A stretch of DNA of 64,000 bases from Polychytrium aggregatum (lineage: Eukaryota > Chytridiomycota > Chytridiomycetes > Polychytriales). This document shows positions 207 through 29,258 of the stretch, one piece after another. The first letter of the stretch is position 1; every line of letters begins with the position of its first letter. The notes beneath the pieces were generated by a model. That model was not told the origin of the DNA. It searched no databases and was given only the letters and a program-made list of their open reading frames with translations. Both the position numbers and the translations under genes were made by a program. The stretch is from the NCBI RefSeq assembly GCF_025602895.1, contig NW_026516205.1:1302001-1366000 (forward strand). Direction: 5' to 3'.

Positions 207-2993
207 TTAGACGTCCAGAAGGAGGCGGCGGGGGTCCTCAATGGCCTCCTTGATCTTGACCAGGAAGGTAACGGCCTCTCTTCCGTCAACGAGACGGTGG
301 TCGTAGGTCAGGGCAACGTACATCATAGGACGGGAAACGACCTGGACCAAGACAGCGGGATAGCAGTTAGAAAACTATTGCGCCAAGAGGGCACTGTTAT
401 GCTTGGGCACTGTGGCAGATCCGCGACCCACCTGTCCCTTGACGACAACGGCTCTCTCCTTGACAGCGTGCATGCCCAGGATGGCACTCTGGGGCTGGTT
501 GATGATGGGGGTGCCGTAGAGCGAGCCAAAGACACCGCCGTTGGAGATAGTGAAGGTGCCGCCAGCGAGATCCTCGAGGGTGATGTTGTTCTCCTTGGCC
601 TGCAGGGGAAGCGAGTACAAGTCGGGTCAGTTGTGAGTCACGACGCAGGGGGCCGCAGAGATATGGGGCAAGATCACAGCAGAGGATCGCATGGCATAGC
701 ACAACATAGCGCAGCATAGCACAGCATAACACAGCATGGCACAGCACAGCAGCTTTGGAGCGTCCAGGCTACCTTCTTGGCAAGGGCAGCCATGGCCTTC
801 TCGACCTGCACCCAGCTCATAGACTCGACGTTTCGCAGCGCGGGGGTGACCAGACCCTTGGGGGTGGCAACAGCGACGCTGATGTCGGCGTAGTCGGCAT
901 AGACAATCTCGTCGCCCTCGATACGAGCGTTGACCTCGGGCACAGCTCGCAGAGCAGCGCTGGAGGCTTTCAGGAAGGCAGACATGAATCCGAGCTTAAC
1001 ACCGTGCTTTTCCAATACGAGGTCCTTGTACTTGTTGCGCATTTCAATCAGGTTGCTGGAAGGACGCAGATTGGGCGTGTGAACGGATCAGTCAGGGGGG
1101 ATGCCAGTTGCGCGGATGCGGTCGAGCCTGGGCAGTCGACCGCAAAGTGGCCAAGCAAGTACAGTTGGCCGCGACTCGTCATCGAGGAAGCACAAACCTC
1201 ATATCAATCTCGTTGAAGGTGGTGAGAGAGGCAGCGGTGTTCTGAGACTCCTTGAGGCGCTGCGAAATCTTCAGGCGCATGCGGTTCATCTTAACGCGGC
1301 GCTCGTCGCGGCTTCCAGGCAGAATACCGGCCTCATCGTCAGCAAAGACGACGGGGGCAGCGGGCTTGGGGGGCGAGGGAGCGGCTGGTAGCAACGATAC
1401 AAGGGGACGATCAGCTGAGGGATCGATCTAATGCAGCAGATCCGAGGAATGGTCTCGACAGCATAGCTCGGTGGTGGCGCGCGGATGCCGCCAGACCAGA
1501 GCAGCGCTTGGCGGTGGAAGTGGACCTGGGCCTCGCAGCAAAAACGGTCTGCGCAACAAGAGCACGACACAGCATCATCCGGCGCCATCCGACTCACCAG
1601 GAGCAGCAGCCTTGGGGGCGGCAGCGGGAGCGGGAGCAGCCGCAGGCTTGGCAGCAGGCTTGGGAGGAGCAGCCGCAGGAGCGGCGGGTTTGGGGGCCTC
1701 GGCCTTGGGAGCCTCAGCGGGCTTTGGCGGGGCAGCACCGGCAGCGGGAGCAGTGCCGAGCTCGATTCTGTAGAGGTCATTGCCAACCTCGATGGTATCA
1801 CCCTCGGCGGCAAACCACTCGAGAACGGTTCCGGACTCGCTGGCGTTGACAGTGATATCGACCTGCCGATAGAAGGAGGTTCAGCGATGGTCATCCGACC
1901 TGGACACACTGGCCGCATCTGCAGCAGCCACCGAAGGAGCTCCAGCGCAAACACGCCACTCGACTTGCTCGGAGAATGATCCTACCTTGTCGGTCTCAAT
2001 GGTAGCGATGGGCTCGTCGCGAGCAACAAAGTCGCCGATCTCTGCAAGCACGGAGGGTATGTCCGAGTTGGCGACATGTCCGCAGCAGCCCGAGCACAGA
2101 CACATCGCCAAGCCCAAAATGCGATCGGCAGTGGCAGGGCAAAGCGCTTACTCTTGTGGATCTTTGACAGAGTGCCTTCCGAGATAGACTCGGCCATCTG
2201 GGGGGTCTTGATGACCTTGTCCGCTGGCGGGGGTGGAATGGTGGGCAGCAATGCAGATGGGCGCGAGCACGCATGAGAAATCGAGATTTGCCGGAGCACA
2301 ACAGCCGATGCGGCGCACGATGCGCATCGAGATCTGCGGCGTCTTCTGCAGCATCACCAGAGAACATGACTGCAGACATCACCACTCAGCGGCCTGTCGA
2401 GCTCGTCCAGCCCGAGAAGCGCGTCCCTTCGTCCCGTTGGCAAGCGCATCAGAGGGGCCTTGCATGGCAGATCGTGGACGGCAACCAGCCAGCCGGGCCA
2501 GCGACCGCCAGGTTCATGCTGGAGCCATCATCAGTCACCCACGCACAGCATCGCAGCATCACATCTTACCCATGAAGCGGACTTGATGGTATCGGAACGG
2601 AGACACAGATCCAGAGCTGGAGACGGCCGATGCATCGAGGGTCACAACAGAGTGTGGGTTAGATCCATCGAACGGACCGAATCGGACTGAGGGCGCCAGC
2701 ATGGCCGAGACGGCAAGTACTTGAGGGCTTGGGTGGGTGGGGGTGGCTCCCAGTGCCAGCCATAAGCCAGGACCGCAATGGGATCGCGCTGCGGATCGGC
2801 CGAAAACGACGCAGAAACGACTGCACAAGATACGGTACCCAGTAGAGGCGGCGGGCGACGACAGGAAGATGCTGTGGGCAGCAGCAGCGCCGGCAAAGGT
2901 GCGGATGGCAGAAGTACCAAGCGAGCCGATGGTCGCCTGGGTCGCGGCGGCGCGCAGCGAGGAAGAGGCCAATGATCTTGATAATCGCAGCAT
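207..2993 (-). CDS. KGD2: Dihydrolipoamide succinyltransferase, E2 of 2-oxoglutarate dehydrogenase (mitochondrial)
   Basis: This is the E2 core of the 2-oxoglutarate dehydrogenase complex, which transfers succinyl from lipoamide to CoA in the mitochondrial TCA cycle. About nine exons are visible. ATG at 2993 opens a Ser/Arg/Ala-rich presequence (to about 2852). A short exon near 2643-2576 leads into the mature protein. The lipoyl domain follows, with [10 protein letters not shown] (about 2211-2148) and the lipoylated ETDKV motif (about 2040-1984). An Ala/Pro/Lys hinge lies at about 1868-1600. The catalytic domain occupies about 1388-1198, 1063-770, 602-430 and 345-207, with the active-site motif DHRLVDG and C-terminus RRLLLDV. 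No peripheral subunit-binding domain is seen, as usual for succinyltransferases. One intron carries a tandem repeat (690-750). Divergent from ATG16. Identity is near certain; exact splice sites are approximate. Confidence 0.93.
690..750. repeat. Imperfect tandem repeat in a KGD2 intron
   Basis: About five imperfect copies of a roughly 10-base unit resembling CACAGCATAG lie between the exon ending near 770 and the one starting near 602. The repeat lies inside the intron and does not affect the reading frame. Confidence 0.6.
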
Positions 2994-7800: not shown

Positions 7801-9310
7801 CTTTCGAATTTTGAATATTGGAAGGAGTCTCGGAACCTTTGGTCGGCCAGGGAATCCGGCCACGGCACCAGGCCCAGTCGCTGTGAAGGGTGCTCTGGGC
7901 TTCGTTTGGTGCACATGTGTTTATATTCAGGATCGAGGGAAGAGCAGGGAGACAGGGGGGGGAGACAGGAATCGACCGTCGGCAGAGATATGAGGCGCCT
8001 TGCTTCGAGTTTCAGACGGCTGTCTCTGCACTGCAGCTCCGGGGCAGCAGCAGGCCGGGGACGGAGGATCGACCAATGAACAAAAGCCCAGAACCCTTCC
8101 CCTCTGGTCAGTGTCCTATTCTCGGAGTCGCATATTTGGAGGGCGTGCGAGAAAGCAGTAGCAGCCGTGGTTGCAGGAGCGATTCGCGGACTCGGGATTC
8201 AGCAGGCAAGATGCAGAGTATCAGACGGGCATGTGGTATGTCTCTAGGTTTGGGAGACTCGCTTGGCTTGCCGAGGGGAATCGATTCGTGTTGGGCGAGC
8301 CGACTCTGTATGAATCCGGGCCACGGATCGTTCTGGCTTGCACGACAGGCCCGAGCCGAATCGGCGATTGCGGGAAGAAGACCCTCACGAGAAGAGAAAG
8401 ATTGAACTTTTGGACATTGCGCGATCCCGCGGCCCGGGTATGCTTGGAGCCGGTGCTTGGAGCCGGTGCCTGTCCGCTGGCCGGCCGATCCCAAGACACA
8501 CGGGAGCGGCAAGCAGCAAACGAAGAAAAATTTTGGGCACACCAAACCCACAGCCGCTTTCCCAGGCAGCAGGCATTCGAATCCACTCGATCCATTCTTG
8601 TGTCGCCTGCTGCTCTGTGTCGCACAAGTCCGGTCAGGTTGGCTCGGTGAATGGTATCCAGGCGTTGCACACATCCCCTCACCTGCTCGGTCCCGGTGCT
8701 TCATTTCGGAGCGTGGGTCCTCGGATGCCCATCTCGTGACAAAGGAGTTTGAAATTACCATCTCTCTTGATGGAAAAAAAGCCGTCGCATGATGCGGCAT
8801 GAGGTCAAGGGCGTGAGGCGGCACAGTAACCGCGCCGGTTCATGACGCGTTCGGGACAGACTCCGATTCATTGTGATTTCTGATGTATCGCCTCGGATCG
8901 CATCAGCACTCTCAGTTTGATCGAGTGCTGCGGGTCTATTGGCCGAAACAGAACCGTGTTTTGGACAGGATGCCGCATTATCGATTTGCGAGGGAAAAGC
9001 GGAAAGAGAAAGAGAGAAAGCATATTGCACTCAACTCGCCTGCGTCGCAGCCCACCAAGGGCCATGGGACCCCGGGGTATCCGGGCACATTCGTCGATCC
9101 CATTGCAAATCCTCTCCATCAGCAGCGAGATAGCACGGCTTGATCCAGAATTGACAGACTGAGTCACACTGAGCATCGTTTGACGGCGAAGCGGTCACGC
9201 CGATACCCTCAAGTTTATCCGTAGCCGATTCGCCGAGGAGCATAAAACGCACCCCCCCAATCTCTCGTATCCTCTGCATTCCTTTCGGCAGTACAGCAAA
9301 GCACTTCACC

Positions 9311-11821
9311 ATGGTGGTCTTGAGCATTTCGACTGTCGTTTCAGCCATCACATCCCTCAGTTACTCTCTTCCAAACACCCTGCAAGGTATCGCCAATGCT
9401 GCCTTGGTTGCCTACACCGCCGTCCAGCAAACCGAGGAGAACCAACAGTCCTGGACCTGCCTGGCCAATCGCTCGCATGGCATTTTGATCACCTTGTCAC
9501 AGGCCCAGACACAGACTCCCGCATTCGCCCACCAGGCCAGGCGACTCGTCCAGTTCCATGATCAAATCTACCAATACTATACCCATGAGGTCCAGGTCCT
9601 CCACAAGGTCCAGAGAGTCTTCATGTCCAACAAGATCCGCCAGCGCATCGAACAGCTCTGTCGTGACCTCGATGTCCTCTGGCAGGGGGTGATGCTTGCC
9701 CTCGCTATCGACACCAACGACATGCTCAACGAGGCCGACCTCCGCCGAGCCATCCAGCAGGACGAGAACCAGAACGAGGTCTTCGTTGCTCAAATCAACT
9801 CTCTCCTCCGGCAGAACAATACCGCCGTCCTGGATCAGATGGATATTCGTCTGAACCAGCAAGAGTGGAAGATTCGCCAAGCCACCAATGCTCTCCAACA
9901 GCTTCTCCAAAACGGCGACGGCATCCAGCAGGTCGTCGACAGAGCTGCCACTTTGCTGCTCGGCATGCTGCAGGACCAGTCCAAGGTTGCACGCTCCTTG
10001 CAGCATAAGCCCTGGCGCATCCCCACCAGTTCAATCACCAACCGCTCGCCTGAACCGATCGCCTGCGGCGGCTTTGGCGAGGTCTACACTGCCACGTACT
10101 ATGGCTCAAAAGTTGCCGTCAAACAGCTCCTGTGCAGCTACCGCGAAACCGAGATTGCCGAATTCCGTCGCGAGATCGAGGTGTGGCACATGTTGAATCA
10201 CTCCAACATCCTCCCGCTCCGTGGTGCTTGCGATACCGCTGAGCGCCCCTTCATGGTCTCACCATTCATGGAGAACGGAACCCTCAAGCGATATATCTCG
10301 GATCCTTGGTGCCCCCGATCGCTCGAGGACCGCCTTCGCCTCATGTATGAGGTTGCTTGCGGCATGGCCTACCTCCACGGCAACCATGTTGTTCATGGAG
10401 ATCTGAAAACAGACAATGTATTGCTGGACTCTGGATATCACGCTGTGATCTCCGACTTTGGCCTGTCCCGCACCAAACACACCTCTGCTGCTTCGATTGT
10501 CCGACCTGGCCAGTCGATCGGTGGAACACTCGGCTACATGGCCCCGGAGATGCTCGACGACGATAATCCCCGCGGATCCTCCAACACGACCGATATCTAC
10601 GCCTTTGGCATCATGCTCTATGAAGTGCTCAAGAACGGCGACTACATTTGGGTCTCCATCGACGGCAAGCCTTTGACCCAGTGTACAGTCGAGCGCCTTG
10701 TGTGCAGCGGCAGGCGACCCAAACGATTTGAGGGCATTCCCGACAACATCTGGTCTCTCATCGAAACCTGCTGGCACCAAGATCCCACTGCACGCCCCAC
10801 TTTCCAGAATATCGTCTCTGATCTTGGGCCATACGCGAATGGTGAGAACGTGTCGCCTCAGCCAGAAAAGCCCGATCAGCAACCCGAAGGGTCGACCGCA
10901 GTGGCTCCTAGCTCTCACTCGGGTGGGAGTTCAGTCCAGCCTGACTCTACCCCTCCCCACCCTTTGGGGATGTCTCGCCAGACATCTACTGTATCTCTTG
11001 CGATTGACAGCAATCCATTGCTGCACACACTGAAGGTCGACTATAACATTCCCCAGGCTACGATTATACGGATTTACTTTGGCGAAGTTGCCGTCCAACT
11101 CGCCACCGCTCGCCAGCTATCCGAGGGCAAGCCAGTCAAGCCAGCCAACGACCCCGTCTGGGCTACTGTTGCCGGGTTATATCAAGGCCTTGCCGATGGC
11201 AAGAACCTCGAGGCCGCCTTCGAGCTTGCTTGGTTGCACTTGACCGGAATTGGCGTGACTAAGAGCGACAGAGAAGCATTTGCTTATTGGGAATTGGTCC
11301 ACGATTTCTCTGCCGACCCGGTCATGAAACCGATTGCCACCTTCATGATGGGCTGGTGCTGCTACCTCGGCCGCGGAACTCGCCAAGACAACACCAGGGC
11401 AACTCAGCTGCTACGAGAGAGCGACACGCCAGAGTTTGGATTTGGCGAAGAGTCGATCCAGGGCAGGGAAACCGCAAGCTCCTCCGCGACGGCCGCGATG
11501 TTCTTCCAGCGCTGTCAATTTGGATCAGAACGCGATTGGCTCTGTCGTCACCTCGTGGCTCGATGCTTGATTGGGGGCTTTGGAACAACACTGGATCCGG
11601 AATATGCCGTTGGAATTCTGCACGAACTGGCCAGTCAGGAATACAGTATCAGCCAGAGCGTGCTGGGCGACTGCTACCAACGGGGCTATGGTGTTCCGAG
11701 GAACAGCATCATGGCTGCCCAGTGGCACCAAAGGTCGACTGAAAGCGGCGACGCATCTGCAATCCATGGCATGGAAACGGATACCATCAACGGTGACGGC
11801 TTGATTGGGACGAGGGCGTGA
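9311..11821 (+). CDS. MLKL/HeLo-like helical bundle, TKL kinase and Sel1-repeat protein
   Basis: Single-exon gene of 836 residues. Residues about 1-240 are all-helical and resemble the four-helix-bundle plus brace region of MLKL, plant CNL-type and fungal HeLo-like proteins. Residues about 255-510 form a TKL-type kinase with glycine loop GGFGEV, catalytic Lys271 in VAVK, catalytic loop HGDLKTDN (H362-D364, with HGD in place of HRD), Asp382 of DFG and MAPEM. All catalytic residues are present, so it should be active. A Ser/Pro/Gln linker follows. Residues about 600-830 hold Sel1-like repeats (for example LGDCYQRGYGVPRNSIMAAQW), a protein-interaction solenoid. The kinase domain is a close paralogue of the one encoded at 22363-25719. 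The role is inferred: a signalling kinase with a putative membrane- or oligomer-forming N-terminal module. Confidence 0.85.
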   Translation: MVVLSISTVVSAITSLSYSLPNTLQGIANAALVAYTAVQQTEENQQSWTCLANRSHGILITLSQAQTQTPAFAHQARRLVQFHDQIYQYYTHEVQVLHKVQRVFMSNKIRQRIEQLCRDLDVLWQGVMLALAIDTNDMLNEADLRRAIQQDENQNEVFVAQINSLLRQNNTAVLDQMDIRLNQQEWKIRQATNALQQLLQNGDGIQQVVDRAATLLLGMLQDQSKVARSLQHKPWRIPTSSITNRSPEPIACGGFGEVYTATYYGSKVAVKQLLCSYRETEIAEFRREIEVWHMLNHSNILPLRGACDTAERPFMVSPFMENGTLKRYISDPWCPRSLEDRLRLMYEVACGMAYLHGNHVVHGDLKTDNVLLDSGYHAVISDFGLSRTKHTSAASIVRPGQSIGGTLGYMAPEMLDDDNPRGSSNTTDIYAFGIMLYEVLKNGDYIWVSIDGKPLTQCTVERLVCSGRRPKRFEGIPDNIWSLIETCWHQDPTARPTFQNIVSDLGPYANGENVSPQPEKPDQQPEGSTAVAPSSHSGGSSVQPDSTPPHPLGMSRQTSTVSLAIDSNPLLHTLKVDYNIPQATIIRIYFGEVAVQLATARQLSEGKPVKPANDPVWATVAGLYQGLADGKNLEAAFELAWLHLTGIGVTKSDREAFAYWELVHDFSADPVMKPIATFMMGWCCYLGRGTRQDNTRATQLLRESDTPEFGFGEESIQGRETASSSATAAMFFQRCQFGSERDWLCRHLVARCLIGGFGTTLDPEYAVGILHELASQEYSISQSVLGDCYQRGYGVPRNSIMAAQWHQRSTESGDASAIHGMETDTINGDGLIGTRA

Positions 11822-21619: not shown

Positions 21620-22362
21620 CGCCGCCCAAGCCAGGATGGCTCTCCCCGTGATCCCATCGCCGCCAATCAGCGCTGCGATCCGGCCGCACAAGGAACGGCA
21701 TCGAAACACGGCCCTGGATCAAACAGCAACGATACCAACCAGGATACCAACCGCGAAACCAGCCAGGATGCCGACGCGCAGAGGGTGCTGGAGCGAGCGG
21801 GAAGGATGCAGAGCCTGGATGACGCACGATGCATGCATGTGGAGCACTCTCTGTGGAAGAGATGGCCATGCACATTGCTGGTCGCCGTCGGCCTGCTGGG
21901 TGTCGGCGGGGGCTGCAAGCGAGCGACTGTTCCAGACCATGACCGCGGGATGCATCCAAGTCGACTTGGCATCCGCATGCTGCACCCATGGTCGCGAATG
22001 TCATCTGTCCATGCAGCACTTTGGCTCGGTGCTGAGGTATATCGGCTGTGCTGATGCCGCTCAGACAAATCGCCCCGTCCTGTTCCCCTGGCACACGGCG
22101 TCAAGTGCGATCTGGACTGTATTGCAAGTTGGCACCACAGTTGCCGCGATGGTGGTGCATTCAAGCGGATCAATTCAGTCCACAAAAGCTCAAAAGATTT
22201 GCAATGACTTCCAGTAACAAAGATCAGGGGCTGAAGAATGAGGTCGCCATGCAAATGCAGTTGCTTCCTTCGTGTCAGAGTCGATGACATGTAACTAGAT
22301 TTTGTTGCGGCTTGGTATTTTCTGGTTTTGCTGAATGAAGATGCGAGTGCGGCAAATCAGAC
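21620..22362. other. Intergenic region with a duplicated gene fragment
   Basis: No intact gene is seen. Positions 22029-22058 match 22640-22669, inside the 3' part of the neighbouring kinase gene, at 27 of 30 bases. The match includes the predicted splice acceptor, so this may be a relic of a duplicated gene end. Confidence 0.4.
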
Positions 22363-25300
22363 TCAGTGGAACAGCTTCTTGAGGAGGTCGTGGGGCTTCT
22401 TGGATGAGGTTTTGACGGACAGATGGAATCTGGACGTACGTCTGTCCTCTTCGACTGCCCTGGCCTCCTCGGCAATCCTTCTCGCCTCCTCAAGCTTTCT
22501 GGCTTCGTCGATCTGTCTTGTCTGATCCTCGAGGAACGCTGCTATCTCGGGACTCGCAAGGATGCTGGCACTTTGGGACTGGTGATTTGGATCGGGGGAG
22601 TCGGCAAGGTACTTGGCATATATGATACGGGTCTGCGGAGTGTTGAGGTATATCGGCTGTGGAGATGCCAAGGTCAGCATGTGTGCCATCGAGCCTGAGC
22701 AGCAGCAGGAGCAAGAGACATGATAGTCTAAACTTACCAAGATGCAGGTCGGCTGGTGTCTTGCCGCCGCGGTCCACACGACCGCAGTGAAGGGGCTGAA
22801 CTCGCGACGGCCGGTGGTCTGGGGCACTTTGACGACAAAGCGGCCATGACGTATCCACTGAGGCGCACCAGGAATGTTGCTCCACTCCGAAGCGGACGAA
22901 GCCAAGGTCGTCGGAGCAGACTGGGTGGCGGAGACGCCAAAGTTACGAAGATGCTGGCCCGAGCGAACAAACTCGCCTCTCTGGCGGACCCAGACGATCT
23001 GGTGGTTTTCCCAGTCGTGCGACAGAATAGAGTTGCCGTCCGGAGCGATGGTCAGGCGGTCCACAAAGTGTGTGTGTCCGGCAAGCGTTTGCTTCAACTG
23101 GCCCGTGGGTACGTCCCACACCTTGAGGGTCTTGTCGTCCGAGCCAGACACAATCCATTGTCCGTCGGGCGAGATGCCAACCGAGTTCACCACGTCGGTG
23201 TGCTCGCTGAGAGTGTGTAGCAGCTGGCAGGCGACAGTGTCCCAGATCTTGATGATCCTTCCATTGGCCGAGCTAATTGTGACAATCAGCTTGCCATCGG
23301 GGGAGACGAACGCGGATCCCATATCGGCTTTATGACCGCTGAAGGTTCTCCTGAGCTGGCCGGTGCGGATATCTAGCTGCTTGATCGTAAAGTCACTTGC
23401 CACGACGATGATTGATCCTCCGTCGGGCGAAATGGTTGCGGCAGCGATGCCACTTGTGTGCTCCTCGGAGATCTTCTCCACTTTGCCCGTGGCGGCGTCC
23501 CACAGCTTAATGGTATGGTCGGATGAGTTCGAGACGATCCAGCGGCCGTCGGGCGAGATGGCAGTGGAGCGCACTTCGGCTGTACGCCCCGTGTCGCCGA
23601 ACTCTTGGCTGTCCCAGTGGCGGTCGAGGCCAGTTGTGACCAGGAACGGGATCTTGTCCTCGAGCTGGGCAGCATACTTCTTGTAGAGCACAGTCTCCTT
23701 TGGCGTGAATGCAAATCCCGAATAATAGACCTGTGGGGCACTCGACATGATTGGATCCATAAACTCGCGGACGAATCGATATGTATCCGACACAAGTGCC
23801 TTGGTGGCGTCGTCGACGGCAGAGTTGGGCGCCTGGGCGAGCGTTCCTTGCAGCAGACCGAGTTGCTCCGTCAGCTTTGGGATCAGCCCGGTGAGGGACC
23901 CGCACTCGAGCCAGAAGAACACATGGCTCTCGAGGAGCTGAGCAAGCTGGTTCCCCAAGCCCGAGGCGCGGTACTGTTTCCAGATCTGCCGGTCAAAGGA
24001 CTTGTCATGCAAGCACCACAGGTAGTGCGTGACCCAATGGATGGTGCTATATCGGAGCGAGGGGGAGATCTTGGCCTTGATCTTGCCTTCGAGATCGGGA
24101 ATGTTGTCATGGAAGTCATAGATGTCGCAGATGTTGATAGCAGGCACGTTCGCGAGGATTGCCTGCAGACATTGCGAGGCAAAGGCCATGTGGAACCGCG
24201 CGGAAACGTGGAAAGGCTGGTCGGCAGATGCGTCTCCAAGGAGATAACTGACGACCAGCTGGTGCCCCTGGGCCTTGATATAGGCTTGGTCTTGGCTGCC
24301 CTCGCCGAGTTTGCCCGGGTCGAGGACAGGGGTTAGGTCCTTGACGCACCGGCGCACAACGCGGAGGTCGATCTCAAAGAGTCCAATAATGGTGCGGATC
24401 GTCAGGGGAGATCGCGATGTGGCGATTGCGGCAATCAGCACGGACAGTTCTTGCGGGTGGCGGGTCTGCTCGTAGATGCTGGCAAAGGCCTGCTGGTACA
24501 GCGTGTGGATGTCGCCTTCGGGAGGAGTGGTGGTGCTGCCCGCGATGGCGAACCAGAGTTCAAAGTCGTCGTCGTCATCGTCGTCGTCGGAGTCCAGGTC
24601 GACGTCAGCGCCAAAGTTGAGGAGCTGCAGCGTATCACTCAGACTCTGGGTGGGCCGTATCTTTGGCGCGAGCACTGACGAACGTATCGACTGCGGCGTG
24701 AGGGGGGCGGCCATGGAGGTCCGCGGGGCAGAATCGCGCTCAGCTGGCTGGAGCGACTGGGAAGGCAGAAGCGACTGGGAAGGCAGGAGCGACTGGGAAA
24801 GCTGGTGCGACTGGGAAAGCTGGTGCACCATGTGAACGGACGGCTCATGGTTCACGTCCTGCTGGCGGAGCTGATCGACGAGCTGGCGCAGACTTGCCAG
24901 GATATCAACAAACTTGGGCCGCTGGGCGGGATCCTGGTGCCAGCAGCGCTCGATCAGAGCCCGGATGTCGTTCGGAACGCCTTCGAATCGATTTGGTCGA
25001 TTACCCTTCAGGACTTGGCGCTCAATTGCAGTCGGCCGCATCGGTTGGTCGTCGACGGTGACCCAGATGGGCTTGCCGTTGTTGAGCACCACGTACATGG
25101 TGATGCCAAAGGCATAGACATCGGTGGCTCTCGAGGAGCCGGTCGGTTGCTCGTCGTCGAGCATTTCGGGGGCCATGTAGTCGAGGGTGCCGCCGGTAGA
25201 CTGGTCGCGGCGGGTGCGGTTGGCGGTGGCCGAAGTGTGCTTGGTGCGGGACATGCCAAAGTCAGTCACGACGGCATTGAAGGAGCCATCGAGCAGCACA

Positions 25301-25719
25301 TTGAGGGACTTGAGGTCGCCGTGGACAATGTTCTTGCCGTGGAGATAGGTCATACCAGAGGCAACTTGATACAGGAGCCGGATCTTCTCGCCGAGCGGCC
25401 GGGGATTGGCGGTGCCAGAGATGTAGCTGTGCAGGGTGCCGTTGGGCATGAGTGGCGAGACCATGAAGGGCCTCACTGCAGTGTCGCAGGCGCCGAGGAG
25501 GGGAAGGACATGGGGGTGGTTGAGCTTGTGCCAGATGCCGATCTCACGGCCAAAGTCGACCAGCTCGCTCTGGTTGTAGCCGCAGAAGAGCTGCTTGACG
25601 GCGACAGGGGCGCCGTAATACGAGGCGGTGTAGACCTCGCCGAAGCCGCCGGTTGCAAGGGGGGTGGCGGACCAGTCGGTGATGGCGTCTTCGGGGATGT
25701 ACCACGATTTTTCAGACAT
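22363..25719 (-). CDS. TKL kinase fused to NLR-like helical region and WD40 repeats
   Basis: One long frame of 1118 residues. The kinase (about 17-290) has GGFGEV, Lys42 in VAVK, HGDLKSLN (D135, N140), D153 of DFG and MAPEM. A linker has LSQS/LPSQS repeats and an eight-Asp run (near 380). Residues about 400-630 resemble the region that follows the NACHT domain in fungal NACHT-WD40 NLRs: a winged-helix-like part (SPLTIRTIIGLFEIDLRVVR), then a helical part ending in HVFFWLECGSL. About 4-5 WD40 repeats follow (705-912), for example VSGSDDKTLKVWD; that is fewer than a closed seven-blade propeller. The C-terminus is a charged helix (EARRIAEEARAVEE). No NACHT Walker motifs are seen. Near the 3' end a GTAAGT donor at 22737 can pair with acceptors giving an 81-base in-frame intron or a 43-base frame-shifting one. 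The kinase domain is paralogous to that at 9311-11821. Confidence 0.85.
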   Translation of the reverse strand: MSEKSWYIPEDAITDWSATPLATGGFGEVYTASYYGAPVAVKQLFCGYNQSELVDFGREIGIWHKLNHPHVLPLLGACDTAVRPFMVSPLMPNGTLHSYISGTANPRPLGEKIRLLYQVASGMTYLHGKNIVHGDLKSLNVLLDGSFNAVVTDFGMSRTKHTSATANRTRRDQSTGGTLDYMAPEMLDDEQPTGSSRATDVYAFGITMYVVLNNGKPIWVTVDDQPMRPTAIERQVLKGNRPNRFEGVPNDIRALIERCWHQDPAQRPKFVDILASLRQLVDQLRQQDVNHEPSVHMVHQLSQSHQLSQSLLPSQSLLPSQSLQPAERDSAPRTSMAAPLTPQSIRSSVLAPKIRPTQSLSDTLQLLNFGADVDLDSDDDDDDDDFELWFAIAGSTTTPPEGDIHTLYQQAFASIYEQTRHPQELSVLIAAIATSRSPLTIRTIIGLFEIDLRVVRRCVKDLTPVLDPGKLGEGSQDQAYIKAQGHQLVVSYLLGDASADQPFHVSARFHMAFASQCLQAILANVPAINICDIYDFHDNIPDLEGKIKAKISPSLRYSTIHWVTHYLWCLHDKSFDRQIWKQYRASGLGNQLAQLLESHVFFWLECGSLTGLIPKLTEQLGLLQGTLAQAPNSAVDDATKALVSDTYRFVREFMDPIMSSAPQVYYSGFAFTPKETVLYKKYAAQLEDKIPFLVTTGLDRHWDSQEFGDTGRTAEVRSTAISPDGRWIVSNSSDHTIKLWDAATGKVEKISEEHTSGIAAATISPDGGSIIVVASDFTIKQLDIRTGQLRRTFSGHKADMGSAFVSPDGKLIVTISSANGRIIKIWDTVACQLLHTLSEHTDVVNSVGISPDGQWIVSGSDDKTLKVWDVPTGQLKQTLAGHTHFVDRLTIAPDGNSILSHDWENHQIVWVRQRGEFVRSGQHLRNFGVSATQSAPTTLASSASEWSNIPGAPQWIRHGRFVVKVPQTTGRREFSPFTAVVWTAAARHQPTCILVSLDYHVSCSCCCSGSMAHMLTLASPQPIYLNTPQTRIIYAKYLADSPDPNHQSQSASILASPEIAAFLEDQTRQIDEARKLEEARRIAEEARAVEEDRRTSRFHLSVKTSSKKPHDLLKKLFH
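22657..22737 (-). other. Possible retained or alternative intron in the kinase-WD40 gene
   Basis: Donor GTAAGT at 22737 is followed by a pyrimidine-rich stretch with acceptor CAG ending at 22695 (43-base intron) and a second CAG ending at 22657 (81-base intron). Retention and the 81-base splice keep the same downstream frame, differing by 27 residues. The 43-base splice reaches a stop within a few codons and removes the C-terminal charged helix. Confidence 0.5.
24725..24830 (-). repeat. In-frame 18-base repeats in the kinase linker
   Basis: Copies resembling GACTGGGAAGGCAGGAGC encode the tandem LPSQSL/LSQSHQ residues between the kinase and the NLR-like region. Unit length keeps the frame. 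Confidence 0.6.
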
Positions 25720-26476: not shown

Positions 26477-28856
26477 ATGGCCATCACCTGGTCTTCGTCG
26501 TATGCGCTGCCGCTTGCAATCGCCGGTGCAATCGCGGCGTACATGGTCCTTCGTCGGCCCCGCCATCTCCCAGATATTCCCGGCGACTACCAGTGGCCAT
26601 TGGTCGGCAATCTGCCCTATCTCCTTCCGTGCGTGCCCTTGTCCATTGACTGCTTTGGATCACCTGTTGCTGCTGCATGCCATCGTATTTTGCGAGCTTC
26701 ACTCCTTTGGTCAGCCTGTTCTTGTTCGCTCCCACAAGCTCGCTGACAATCCTGTCGCTCTGCTCCACACCATCCAGATTCAGCCGAAAGAGCAAGAGTC
26801 ATCTCTATATGCGCCGGTGCATGCAGCTCTACGGCAAGGTTGACCAGGGATACATATTCGGCAACGTTTTCGTTAATTTCTCGGACGCCAATGTCGTTCG
26901 TGAACTCTTGCGTCAGGATGAAAACGGCGCTATTGTCCGAGGCGACATTGTTCAGAAAGCCTTCCGGTAAGCGATGCCAACTTGCATCGGAGTTGCGTGA
27001 CGAGATGGATCGATGTCAATCACCCAACAGCATTCGGAGACTGCCGCTGAAAACTCCACATCCACATCCATATCACCCTCAACATCCACATCTATATCAC
27101 CCTCAACATCCACATCCATATCACCGCCAACATCATGCTCATATACTCGCCGTATCATCTCTACTTCGATTCTCTCACACCAACAATGGCGCTCGTTTTC
27201 AGCGGTGTCGGGAACTGGATTCTCTTTTTGATGCCGATGGACCGCCACTGGAAGCGTCACCGCAAGATGATCCAGCCAGGCTTTGGGCCTGCCCAGCTGC
27301 GACGCACCGCCGTCTCAACCAACGAGTTTCTGGATACGCTGCTCGAGCACTGGATCAGCACCGACGCCTCTGTCGTCGACTTCCACACGATCGCCTCCGC
27401 CGTGATCATGGACATTCTGTGAGTATCATTGGACCATCTGCTGATATTGCTGGGAGCCGTGTGATCTGCGCATGCACAGGCTGCAGCGGCTTGCTGACCA
27501 CGGTCGCTTTGATATTCTTGATCGCCTTCGCGGTGGTCGCTTGGGCCGCAGGGGCGACGTCGGCTTCTCGTACCGGTTCAACATGGTCAAACACCTCGAC
27601 GACCCAGAGAAGCTCAACGAGATCTTCCAGCCCTTCGATCGCCTCTTCCGCATCAGCTTCGAGCGATCGCGCTATCCAGCCTTTTTGTGGGAATGGTTCA
27701 ATCTCGGGGACGACCAAATCAAGCCGCACATCGGGGCTCTGCACACCCTCGTCCTTGCCGTCTTGAACGAGCGCCGCGCGGCCGAAGCCTCGGTACTGAA
27801 AGCAGAAGCCCGGGACATTGTGGGCCGCCTGATCTGTGTCGACGACGAGGGAAGCGAGCAATTCACGGACGAGGAGATATGCGACGAGCTCCTGGGCTTT
27901 TTCTTTGCCGGACACGAGTAAGCAGCTTCCTCGGTCCAGGCAAATCGTGCGCCGATCATTGGCTTCTTCGATCGCATCCGGAGTGCCGGCTAACGCCAGT
28001 TTGGTATCGGATTCCCGCCAGAACGACTGCCAACACCCTGACCTTTGTCGTGGCTGAGCTCGCCCAAAACCCTGCCGTCGCCGAGCGACTCTACAACGAA
28101 ATCCACAGCATCCTCGGCAGCGATGGCATTCCCAGCCATGACCAGCTGAGTGACTTCAAGTAAGCTCTCCATCGCGCCAAATGGCACTTGATGGCGCAAC
28201 TGCCATCGACTCGGCTATGCTGCGATGCCGACAGAGTCCTCTCCCACGACATCTGACTTGTCCTCGATCCAGGTACCTCGACAAGGTCCTTAAGGAGACT
28301 CAGCGGCTGCATTCGGTTGTTCCCATCATCTTGCGATTCGCTGTCCGGGACACAACAGTCGCGGGCTACAAGATCCCGAAGGGCGTAAGTGTGCTGTCAT
28401 GGCATACGCTATCATGGCATACGCTGTCGTGGCATACTCTGTCGTGGCATACGCTGTGTGGCATACTCTGTCGTGGCATACGCAGTCGTGGCATACGCAG
28501 TCGAGAACACATTTGTTTCCCCCTATCGCTCACTTTCGTGCCTGTTTCAACCACAGGCTCACATCGGTATAAGCATCGACCATATCCACCACAACCCCGA
28601 GTACTGGAAGGACCCAGACGTTTTCAACCCCGATCGCTGGGACGAACCCATTGTTCCCGGGAGCTTCATTCCCTTTGGCGACGGTCCGATGAACTGCATC
28701 GGCCAGAAGATGGCCGTGATCGAGAGCAAGATCTTTGTGATCCGTCTGGTGCAAAAGTTCCGGCTCCACATCGTCAACCCAGATCAGCTCGACCCGATCT
28801 ACTCGATCACACTCGGATACAAGAACGGACTCGACATCCGACTGGAGAGACGTTGA
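26477..28856 (+). CDS. Cytochrome P450 monooxygenase
   Basis: Membrane-anchored haem monooxygenase; substrate unknown. Seven or so exons. The first (26477 to about 26632) has an N-terminal anchor (SYALPLAIAGAIAAYMVLRR) and a Pro/Gly hinge. Later exons lie at about 26774-26968, 27130-27419, 27480-27918, 28021-28159, 28274-28384 and 28556-28856. The I-helix oxygen-binding motif AGHETT is assembled exactly across the intron at about 27919-28020. The K-helix ExxR is KETQR. The haem-binding loop is FGDGPMNCIG with Cys as iron ligand. Two introns carry minisatellites. No neighbouring biosynthetic genes were recognised, so its pathway cannot be inferred. Confidence 0.9.
27065..27135 (+). repeat. 24-base tandem repeat in P450 intron
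   Basis: Almost three copies of a unit resembling TATCACCCTCAACATCCACA, plus four bases, lie inside the intron preceding the exon at about 27130. Confidence 0.8.
28392..28503 (+). repeat. Roughly 15-base tandem repeat in P450 intron
   Basis: About eight imperfect copies of TGTCGTGGCATACGC fill the intron between the exons ending at 28384 and starting near 28556. Confidence 0.85.
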
Positions 28857-29258
28857 GGACATCCCGCACTGCATGGTCCTTGAGGAGCATTGTGGCAGCT
28901 CGCCATCAATAGAACAGAACTAGATGAGCCGATCCTGTTGTCGCTGCCCGAGCCAGAGAATCGGCCCGCATCAAGCACACCGCCCAAAAATAGTGCATGC
29001 GCAGCGATGTGCGTGCATTCCATTGGCCCGCTGGACCAACAAACGGCTGTTTTCGCCGAATGTTGTGCATCGAGCGTCCGGTTGGATGGTGTGTCGACCT
29101 GGCTCTGCCTCTGGATCTGCCTCTGGATCTGCATCTGGATGAACCGCTTGCTGCTGGGCCTCTGCTTCCAGCGCCGACCCCACCACAGCACCGCCCAGGC
29201 TCTCGCCCCTGGCCCACACCCCGAACTCGTCTCGGTGCTCTCAGCCCGGCTGTCGGCC
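28857..29258. other. Intergenic region between P450 and DUS2
   Basis: No gene seen. A short TCTGCCTCTGGA repeat (three to four copies) lies at about 29100-29140. The DUS2 frame is open back through it, but the conserved protein starts later. Confidence 0.45.

Follow-up and report, generated by a model that had tools for sequence, protein, structure and literature searches.

The window analyzed here comprises 64,000 nucleotides of the chytrid Polychytrium aggregatum (contig NW_026516205.1, positions 1,302,001 to 1,366,000, forward strand), and the gene of interest occupies its positions 22363-25719 on the minus strand. A first-pass annotation made from the sequence alone had described this gene as one frame joining an apparently active kinase, a region resembling the segments that follow the NACHT nucleoside triphosphatase (NTPase) in fungal NOD-like receptors (NLRs), and WD40 repeats, with no Walker motif. 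The frame is sound, since its 1118 codons encode 1118 amino acids with no internal stop, and third-position GC stays at 0.65-0.85 from end to end. The gene is organized as follows:

22363..25719 (-), whole gene in a single frame of 1118 amino acids: kinase, linker, winged-helix domain (WHD), helical domain (HD2), WD40 part and C-terminal tail
24880..25719 (-), protein kinase domain, residues 1-280, with VAVK, E59, HGDLK, DFG and APE (Pfam match and motifs)
24544..24879 (-), linker, residues 281-392, of low complexity, with SQSLLP repeats and an acidic run
24196..24525 (-), predicted WHD, residues about 399-508 (AlphaFold2 model, Apaf-1 match and column counts)
23605..24195 (-), predicted HD2-like helical domain, residues about 509-705 (AlphaFold2 model and match to Apaf-1 355-604)
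22915..23604 (-), WD40 repeats, residues 706-935 (Pfam match and propeller families)
22366..22914 (-), C-terminal part, residues 936-1118, with a charged tail at its end and partly common to siblings (sibling matches)

The best-matching family of the kinase is PK_Tyr_Ser-Thr (PF07714, E 6.5e-52, residues 20-277). All catalytic motifs of TKL-type kinases (K, E, D, N and DFG) were found, namely VAVK (K42), REI (E59), HGDLKxxN (D135 and N140), DFG (153-155, with D153) and APE, and the kinase thus appears active, as had been proposed. Its catalytic loop reads HGD and is missing the usual arginine, a type of loop known as the 'non-RD' form. The WD40 repeats are equally clear (PF00400, E 1.2e-28) and lie at the C-terminal side, as in NACHT-WD40 NLRs. 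Neither the linker (residues 280-389), whose repeat family has an 18-nt spacing, nor the C-terminal part (residues 936-1118, up to E 1) matched Pfam. A 30-nt direct repeat, 90% identical, was observed at 22640-22669 within the C-terminal coding part and at 22029-22058 in the downstream spacer.

The reported absence of a Walker A motif was also verified, as the pattern [AG]xxxxGK[ST] had no match in the frame; in siblings L022, L027 and L028 the same pattern falls on WD40 stretches such as AISPDGKT. NACHT was not among the best 25 of the 47 Pfam matches of the protein, and a NACHT query matched none of 18 kinase loci, while it matched all 18 NACHT loci used as a control. The gene lacks the NACHT/STAND NTPase with Walker A and B that is characteristic of fungal NACHT-WD40 NLRs. 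The P-loop motif expected of an NB-ARC NTPase (Apaf-1-like proteins) or a Roc GTPase (ROCO proteins) is likewise absent, and instead of the N-terminal CARD of Apaf-1-like proteins the protein opens with the kinase. The view that a kinase stands in the position of NACHT is retained with a correction, in that the missing part is the NTPase plus HD1 and extends beyond the NACHT core.

The middle region (residues 390-705) matched nothing in Pfam up to E 10 and was therefore examined through its relatives in the same genome and through its fold. Sequence and profile comparisons with the PDB and with Pfam gave nothing at E 0.1 or better; the sub-threshold PDB profile matches were RSC8 (E 0.2) and, along the P-loop part, replication-associated proteins (E 0.38 and 0.84). 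Among 440 chains compared with the AlphaFold2 model of the region, the closest was Apaf-1 355-604, the portion that precedes the Apaf-1 WD40 domain. This match was obtained with a second structure aligner, separate from Foldseek; Foldseek with the middle region alone gave a best E of 1.3, with no NLR at the top and nothing significant. A NACHT sibling matched Apaf-1 over 112-603.

The genome itself (64.7 Mb, 418 contigs) contains 130 matches to residues 390-705, at 44-100% identity. After removal of four that were second pieces of listed loci, the remaining 126 were cross-tabulated with the kinase matches of the whole genome (306 candidates, of which 138 were scored) and its NACHT matches (all 108 candidates scored), counting a module when it lay on the same strand and at most 2.5 kb upstream. 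NACHT precedes 86 of the 126 copies, redundant contigs included, and in 85 of these it lies within 275 bases. A kinase precedes 28 copies, at 272-573 bases, and neither module was found at the other 12. No copy has both within the 2.5 kb. In the NACHT siblings a P-loop (AVAGVGKS), a Walker B (ILVDALDEC) and the motif TSRPE stand directly before the middle region, which shares about 45-55% identity with its counterpart in the window gene. In Pfam, L030 matched NPHP3_N (E 4.7e-29), with NACHT (E 0.0029) below its cut-off. None of the NACHT loci that were read directly (n=18, of which L051-L060 reach only about the NACHT start) carries a kinase, nor do the upstream stretches of L043 and L049. Eight of the 12 loci with neither module were also read: L042 has a pseudokinase by motifs, L044 a truncated kinase and L023 the last 48 kinase residues, while L031, L032, L045, L046 and L047 contain neither module. 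Viral contigs and prokaryote genomes, searched with a peptide pattern and tblastn, yielded no confirmed relative of the middle region.

The claim that the region is of the post-NACHT type passes the structural test because the genomic neighbors of the 126 copies, the Apaf-1 fold match and a winged-helix motif with a conserved histidine, recognizable in both classes, point the same way. The model and the homologues accordingly indicate a WHD-HD2 fold before the WD40 part, as in Apaf-1-like proteins and NACHT-WD40 NLRs. Of the initial assignment of residues 400-630 as winged-helix and helical, the identity is supported, and the boundary has to be moved to about residue 705. Similarly, the architecture is real, but it belongs to a family and not to one protein.

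Of the 28 kinase loci in the cross-table, 22 encode the kinase and the middle region within a single open frame, and six have them in different frames, owing to damage or an intron. Grouping at 95% DNA identity resolved the 28 kinase-class loci that were read, a set overlapping with but differing from the former, into 17 clusters, of which one consists of the remnant L023 and another of the pseudokinase L042. The kinases of L011-L028, L023 excluded, are 74.6-82.8% identical to that of the window gene. The synonymous divergence (dS) of siblings from the window gene is 0.68-1.0 for the kinase and 0.9-2.2 for the middle region. The median ratio of nonsynonymous to synonymous divergence (dN/dS) in 10 distinct one-frame genes is 0.174 for the kinase, 0.240 for the WHD and 0.185 for HD2, so that by these estimates all three are under purifying selection. 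Given the shared frame, the clusters and the dN/dS and dS values, chance fusion or misassembly is therefore excluded for the family. It is true that L017 contains a stop, that L023 is a remnant and that a near-identical copy of the window gene on a redundant contig (L009, C111, compared with L010, C223) shows single-base indels, including one in the linker that disrupts the frame and reflects either a sequencing error or a null allele. Together with the six loci in different frames these cases are what a pseudogene or an assembly artefact would leave, an explanation to which we attach practically no credence in view of the 22 intact frames.

The two classes differ in the WHD. The NACHT siblings carry, with small variation, the motif F-N-H-K-S-V-x-D-Y, whose histidine occurs in every one of the 34 sequences aligned. 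The window gene retains it as H486, and has A483, G485 and S491 in place of the F, N and D. In these three columns the NACHT residue occurs in 15/15, 15/15 and 15/15 NACHT rows and in 0/17, 1/17 and 0/17 kinase rows, where the aspartate gives way to alanine (10), serine (3), threonine (3) or glutamate (1); the rows share descent, and the counts are not independent events. Across the whole region ten NACHT-fixed columns differ by class, four of them within residues 481-491. The WHD histidine contacts ADP in Apaf-1 and NLRs. We read the class-specific change as the probable loss of a constraint imposed by a facing NTPase.

Phylogenetic analysis gave different answers for the two halves of the region. 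For the WHD half, a 32-row tree splits kinase from NACHT rows with support 98/95, while in that of the HD2 half the classes are intermixed and well supported branches force at least three changes. Over one HD2 stretch, L044 shares 95% identity with a NACHT sibling, against 36% with its best match among the kinase siblings of the main group. The whole-region tree of 39 rows needs two changes; in that of 32 rows a weakly supported branch (60/87) sets the 17 kinase rows apart, and a grouping of 14 kinase rows without L041, L044 and L048 was not rejected (approximately unbiased test, p 0.449). The disagreement between the halves is read as probable recombination. Since the WHD half separates the classes, the HD2 half mixes them and the HD2 stretch of L044 is NACHT-like, kinase and WHD appear to have been inherited together, with the downstream part exchanged. 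The kinase tree had 37 rows (18 kinases joined to the middle region, 18 other kinases of the genome and the second kinase of the window), and its bootstrap had not settled. The joined kinases do not form one clade in it and at least three changes are forced, suggesting that several kinases may have been recruited to the middle region; 'other' here means no middle-region match within 2.5 kb, and L063 and L064, 'other' kinases inside the main group, are maybe broken copies.

The WD40 part was compared as units of 42 residues (GH = sites 1-2), pairing those that share 60% identity or more, with 64 distinct units from 11 comparison loci (8 NACHT, 3 neither) and 47 from 15 kinase loci. The proportion of nonsynonymous differences (pN) exceeded the mean synonymous one (pS) at sites 4, 5, 7 and 23 in both sets, a rough count to which the window gene supplies two units. 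At site 25 the values were 0.89 and 0.62, and sites 33 (0.98) and 3 (0.90) of the comparison set were equally high. A study on the NWD genes of Podospora found strong positive selection at codons 7, 9, 25 and 27 (PMC1805685). Judging by their spacing (offset 2), these would correspond to our sites 5, 7, 23 and 25. Furthermore, 31 of 46 kinase-class units had their nearest unit in the comparison set rather than in another kinase gene and 8 tied, although the larger comparison pool (69 versus 46 units) favors that result. The variable-site and nearest-unit counts lend some support to a possible role in recognition for the WD40 part of the kinase class.

Several known systems resemble this architecture in part. 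One is the fungal NACHT-WD40 NLRs of the HET-E/HET-D type (NWD family), which share a homologous WHD-HD2-WD40 part in the same genome and whose positively selected WD40 sites in Podospora (PMC1805685) match by spacing the sites that were most variable here in a rough count; the window gene differs from them in having a kinase where they have the NTPase, Walker A and HD1. Apaf-1 shows the same WHD-HD2-WD40 order and the best fold match, but an NTPase and no kinase. Kinases at the N-terminus of fungal NLRs have been described (PMC4986451; PMC9815663); by the NLR definition of those papers the nucleotide-binding domain is kept, whereas none of the 126 loci examined here has both kinase and NACHT within 2.5 kb. 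In some Sordariales NLRs the kinase is a C-terminal domain, according to another study (PMC12258605). LRRK2 and other ROCO proteins also combine a kinase and a C-terminal WD40 domain in one chain, but with a RocCOR GTPase and a different domain order. The bacterial PkwA-type proteins share the kinase by name and a WD40 match, a comparison made outside the middle region only, and no relative of that region was confirmed in the prokaryote genome collection. In the open-licence PMC articles, as partially listed, no paper was found on a kinase replacing the NTPase before a WHD-WD40 part.

Taken together, the single conserved frame, the homology of the WHD-HD2-WD40 part to NACHT-WD40 proteins of the same genome and the class-differing WHD lead us to regard the protein, on balance, as probably an NLR-derived receptor in which the nucleotide switch (NTPase and HD1) was exchanged for a protein kinase. 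The WD40 propeller would bind a variable cue, such as a non-self or guarded-self protein, and binding would shift HD2-WHD relative to the kinase. In Apaf-1, the WHD moves relative to the NTPase. The shift would release or cluster the kinase, which would then phosphorylate a downstream target, the output being phosphorylation instead of ATP-driven oligomerization. The 'different signalling logic' suggested at first is in this respect a reasonable inference, and the family suggests a receptor signaling through phosphorylation. More tentatively, we consider possible a modular system, in which NTPase-WHD and kinase-WHD modules sit on a shared, recombining and diversifying HD2-WD40 pool; the WHD, once a nucleotide-sensing lid, would have turned into a kinase regulator, and an NLR-type sensor would drive phosphorylation directly. 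The architecture is not filed as an NLR because the nucleotide switch, by which NLRs are defined, is absent, even if the protein would work like one should the above hold. If true, that switch would be replaceable, and NLR sensing would be joined to kinase signaling within one chain. The same WHD-HD2-WD40 part with and without an NTPase in a single genome also constitutes a natural experiment.

The main rival holds that an ancestral kinase-NACHT-WD40 receptor deleted its NACHT, leaving WHD-HD2 as a mere scaffold and the kinase constitutive or otherwise regulated. Pkinase and PK_Tyr_Ser-Thr are known N-terminal domains of fungal NLRs (PMC4986451; PMC9815663), and the NACHT-fixed WHD residues vary in the kinase class. 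Moreover, a search up to 5 kb found a same-strand kinase 3.1-4.3 kb upstream of four NACHT loci (C66, C397, C26 and C201). These kinases are separate genes or upstream exons, and could be remnants or exons of kinase-NACHT genes; they make an exchange slightly less probable. Still, deletion seems unlikely to us, as no locus has both modules within 2.5 kb, the WHD and HD2 remain under apparent purifying selection, and the exons upstream of NACHT in L043, L049 and L050 are of another kind (SAM-like in L043, PF07647, E 5.2e-4, 1653-2201 (+); TIR-like by eye). The latter siblings are possibly SAM-TIR-NACHT-WD40 receptors; a TIR assignment was dropped, since of four scanned pieces one (L050) matched TIR_2, at only E 0.12.

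It is less probable again that the kinase proteins are helpers or decoys that pair with NACHT siblings, with WHD-HD2-WD40 as a dominant regulator, or that phosphorylate partners of a NACHT complex. The class mixing in the HD2 tree, the NACHT-like stretch of L044 and the nearest WD40 units, with the pool bias noted, would fit, as would the pseudokinase L042 (190-3984 (+), HGN, DFG missing, with an extra N-terminal part before the same middle region). However, recombination alone accounts for the shared stretches, and the class-typical WHD residues by the histidine are lost. Least credible among the functional explanations, and in our opinion very improbable, is an ordinary kinase-WD40 protein, PkwA-like or a stress kinase, with an NLR-like middle by descent only and no immune role. 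The WD40 matches include a PkwA chain and the genome holds a very large related-kinase family (at least 138 of 306 candidates), but the identity of the middle region to that of NACHT loci and WD40 units with the same variable sites speak against it.

Some further observations were made. The 86 NACHT loci, redundant contigs included, suggest that a zoosporic fungus can carry an extensive set of NLR-type genes. The chitin synthases of the genome (71 matches to PF03142, the best at E 3.9e-229; only long matches count, as 4 of 14 control genomes also match) and a radial-spoke protein of the flagellum (PF04712, E 3.9e-32, none of 14 controls) fit such an organism. Siblings L039, L040, L042 and L048 have an extra part upstream of the kinase domain, which together with the pseudokinase motifs of L042 recalls MLKL; MLKL_N was below its cut-off in one of the four scanned (E 0.038), the window gene begins with the kinase, and the claim was dropped. 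Membership in a PADLOC system was not accepted either, as the 25 listed of 34 matches all fall in residues 8-312, that is, the kinase. In some frames (C123, C40, C114 and C13) two or three kinase domains follow in succession. The second kinase of the window, at 9173-11821 (+), belongs to the same large family (PF07714, E 2.6e-54), is 60% identical to the kinase of the window gene and carries Sel1 repeats (E 2e-17). Finally, pieces at 26500-28900 (+) resemble by eye a cytochrome P450, with a haem-binding-like motif.

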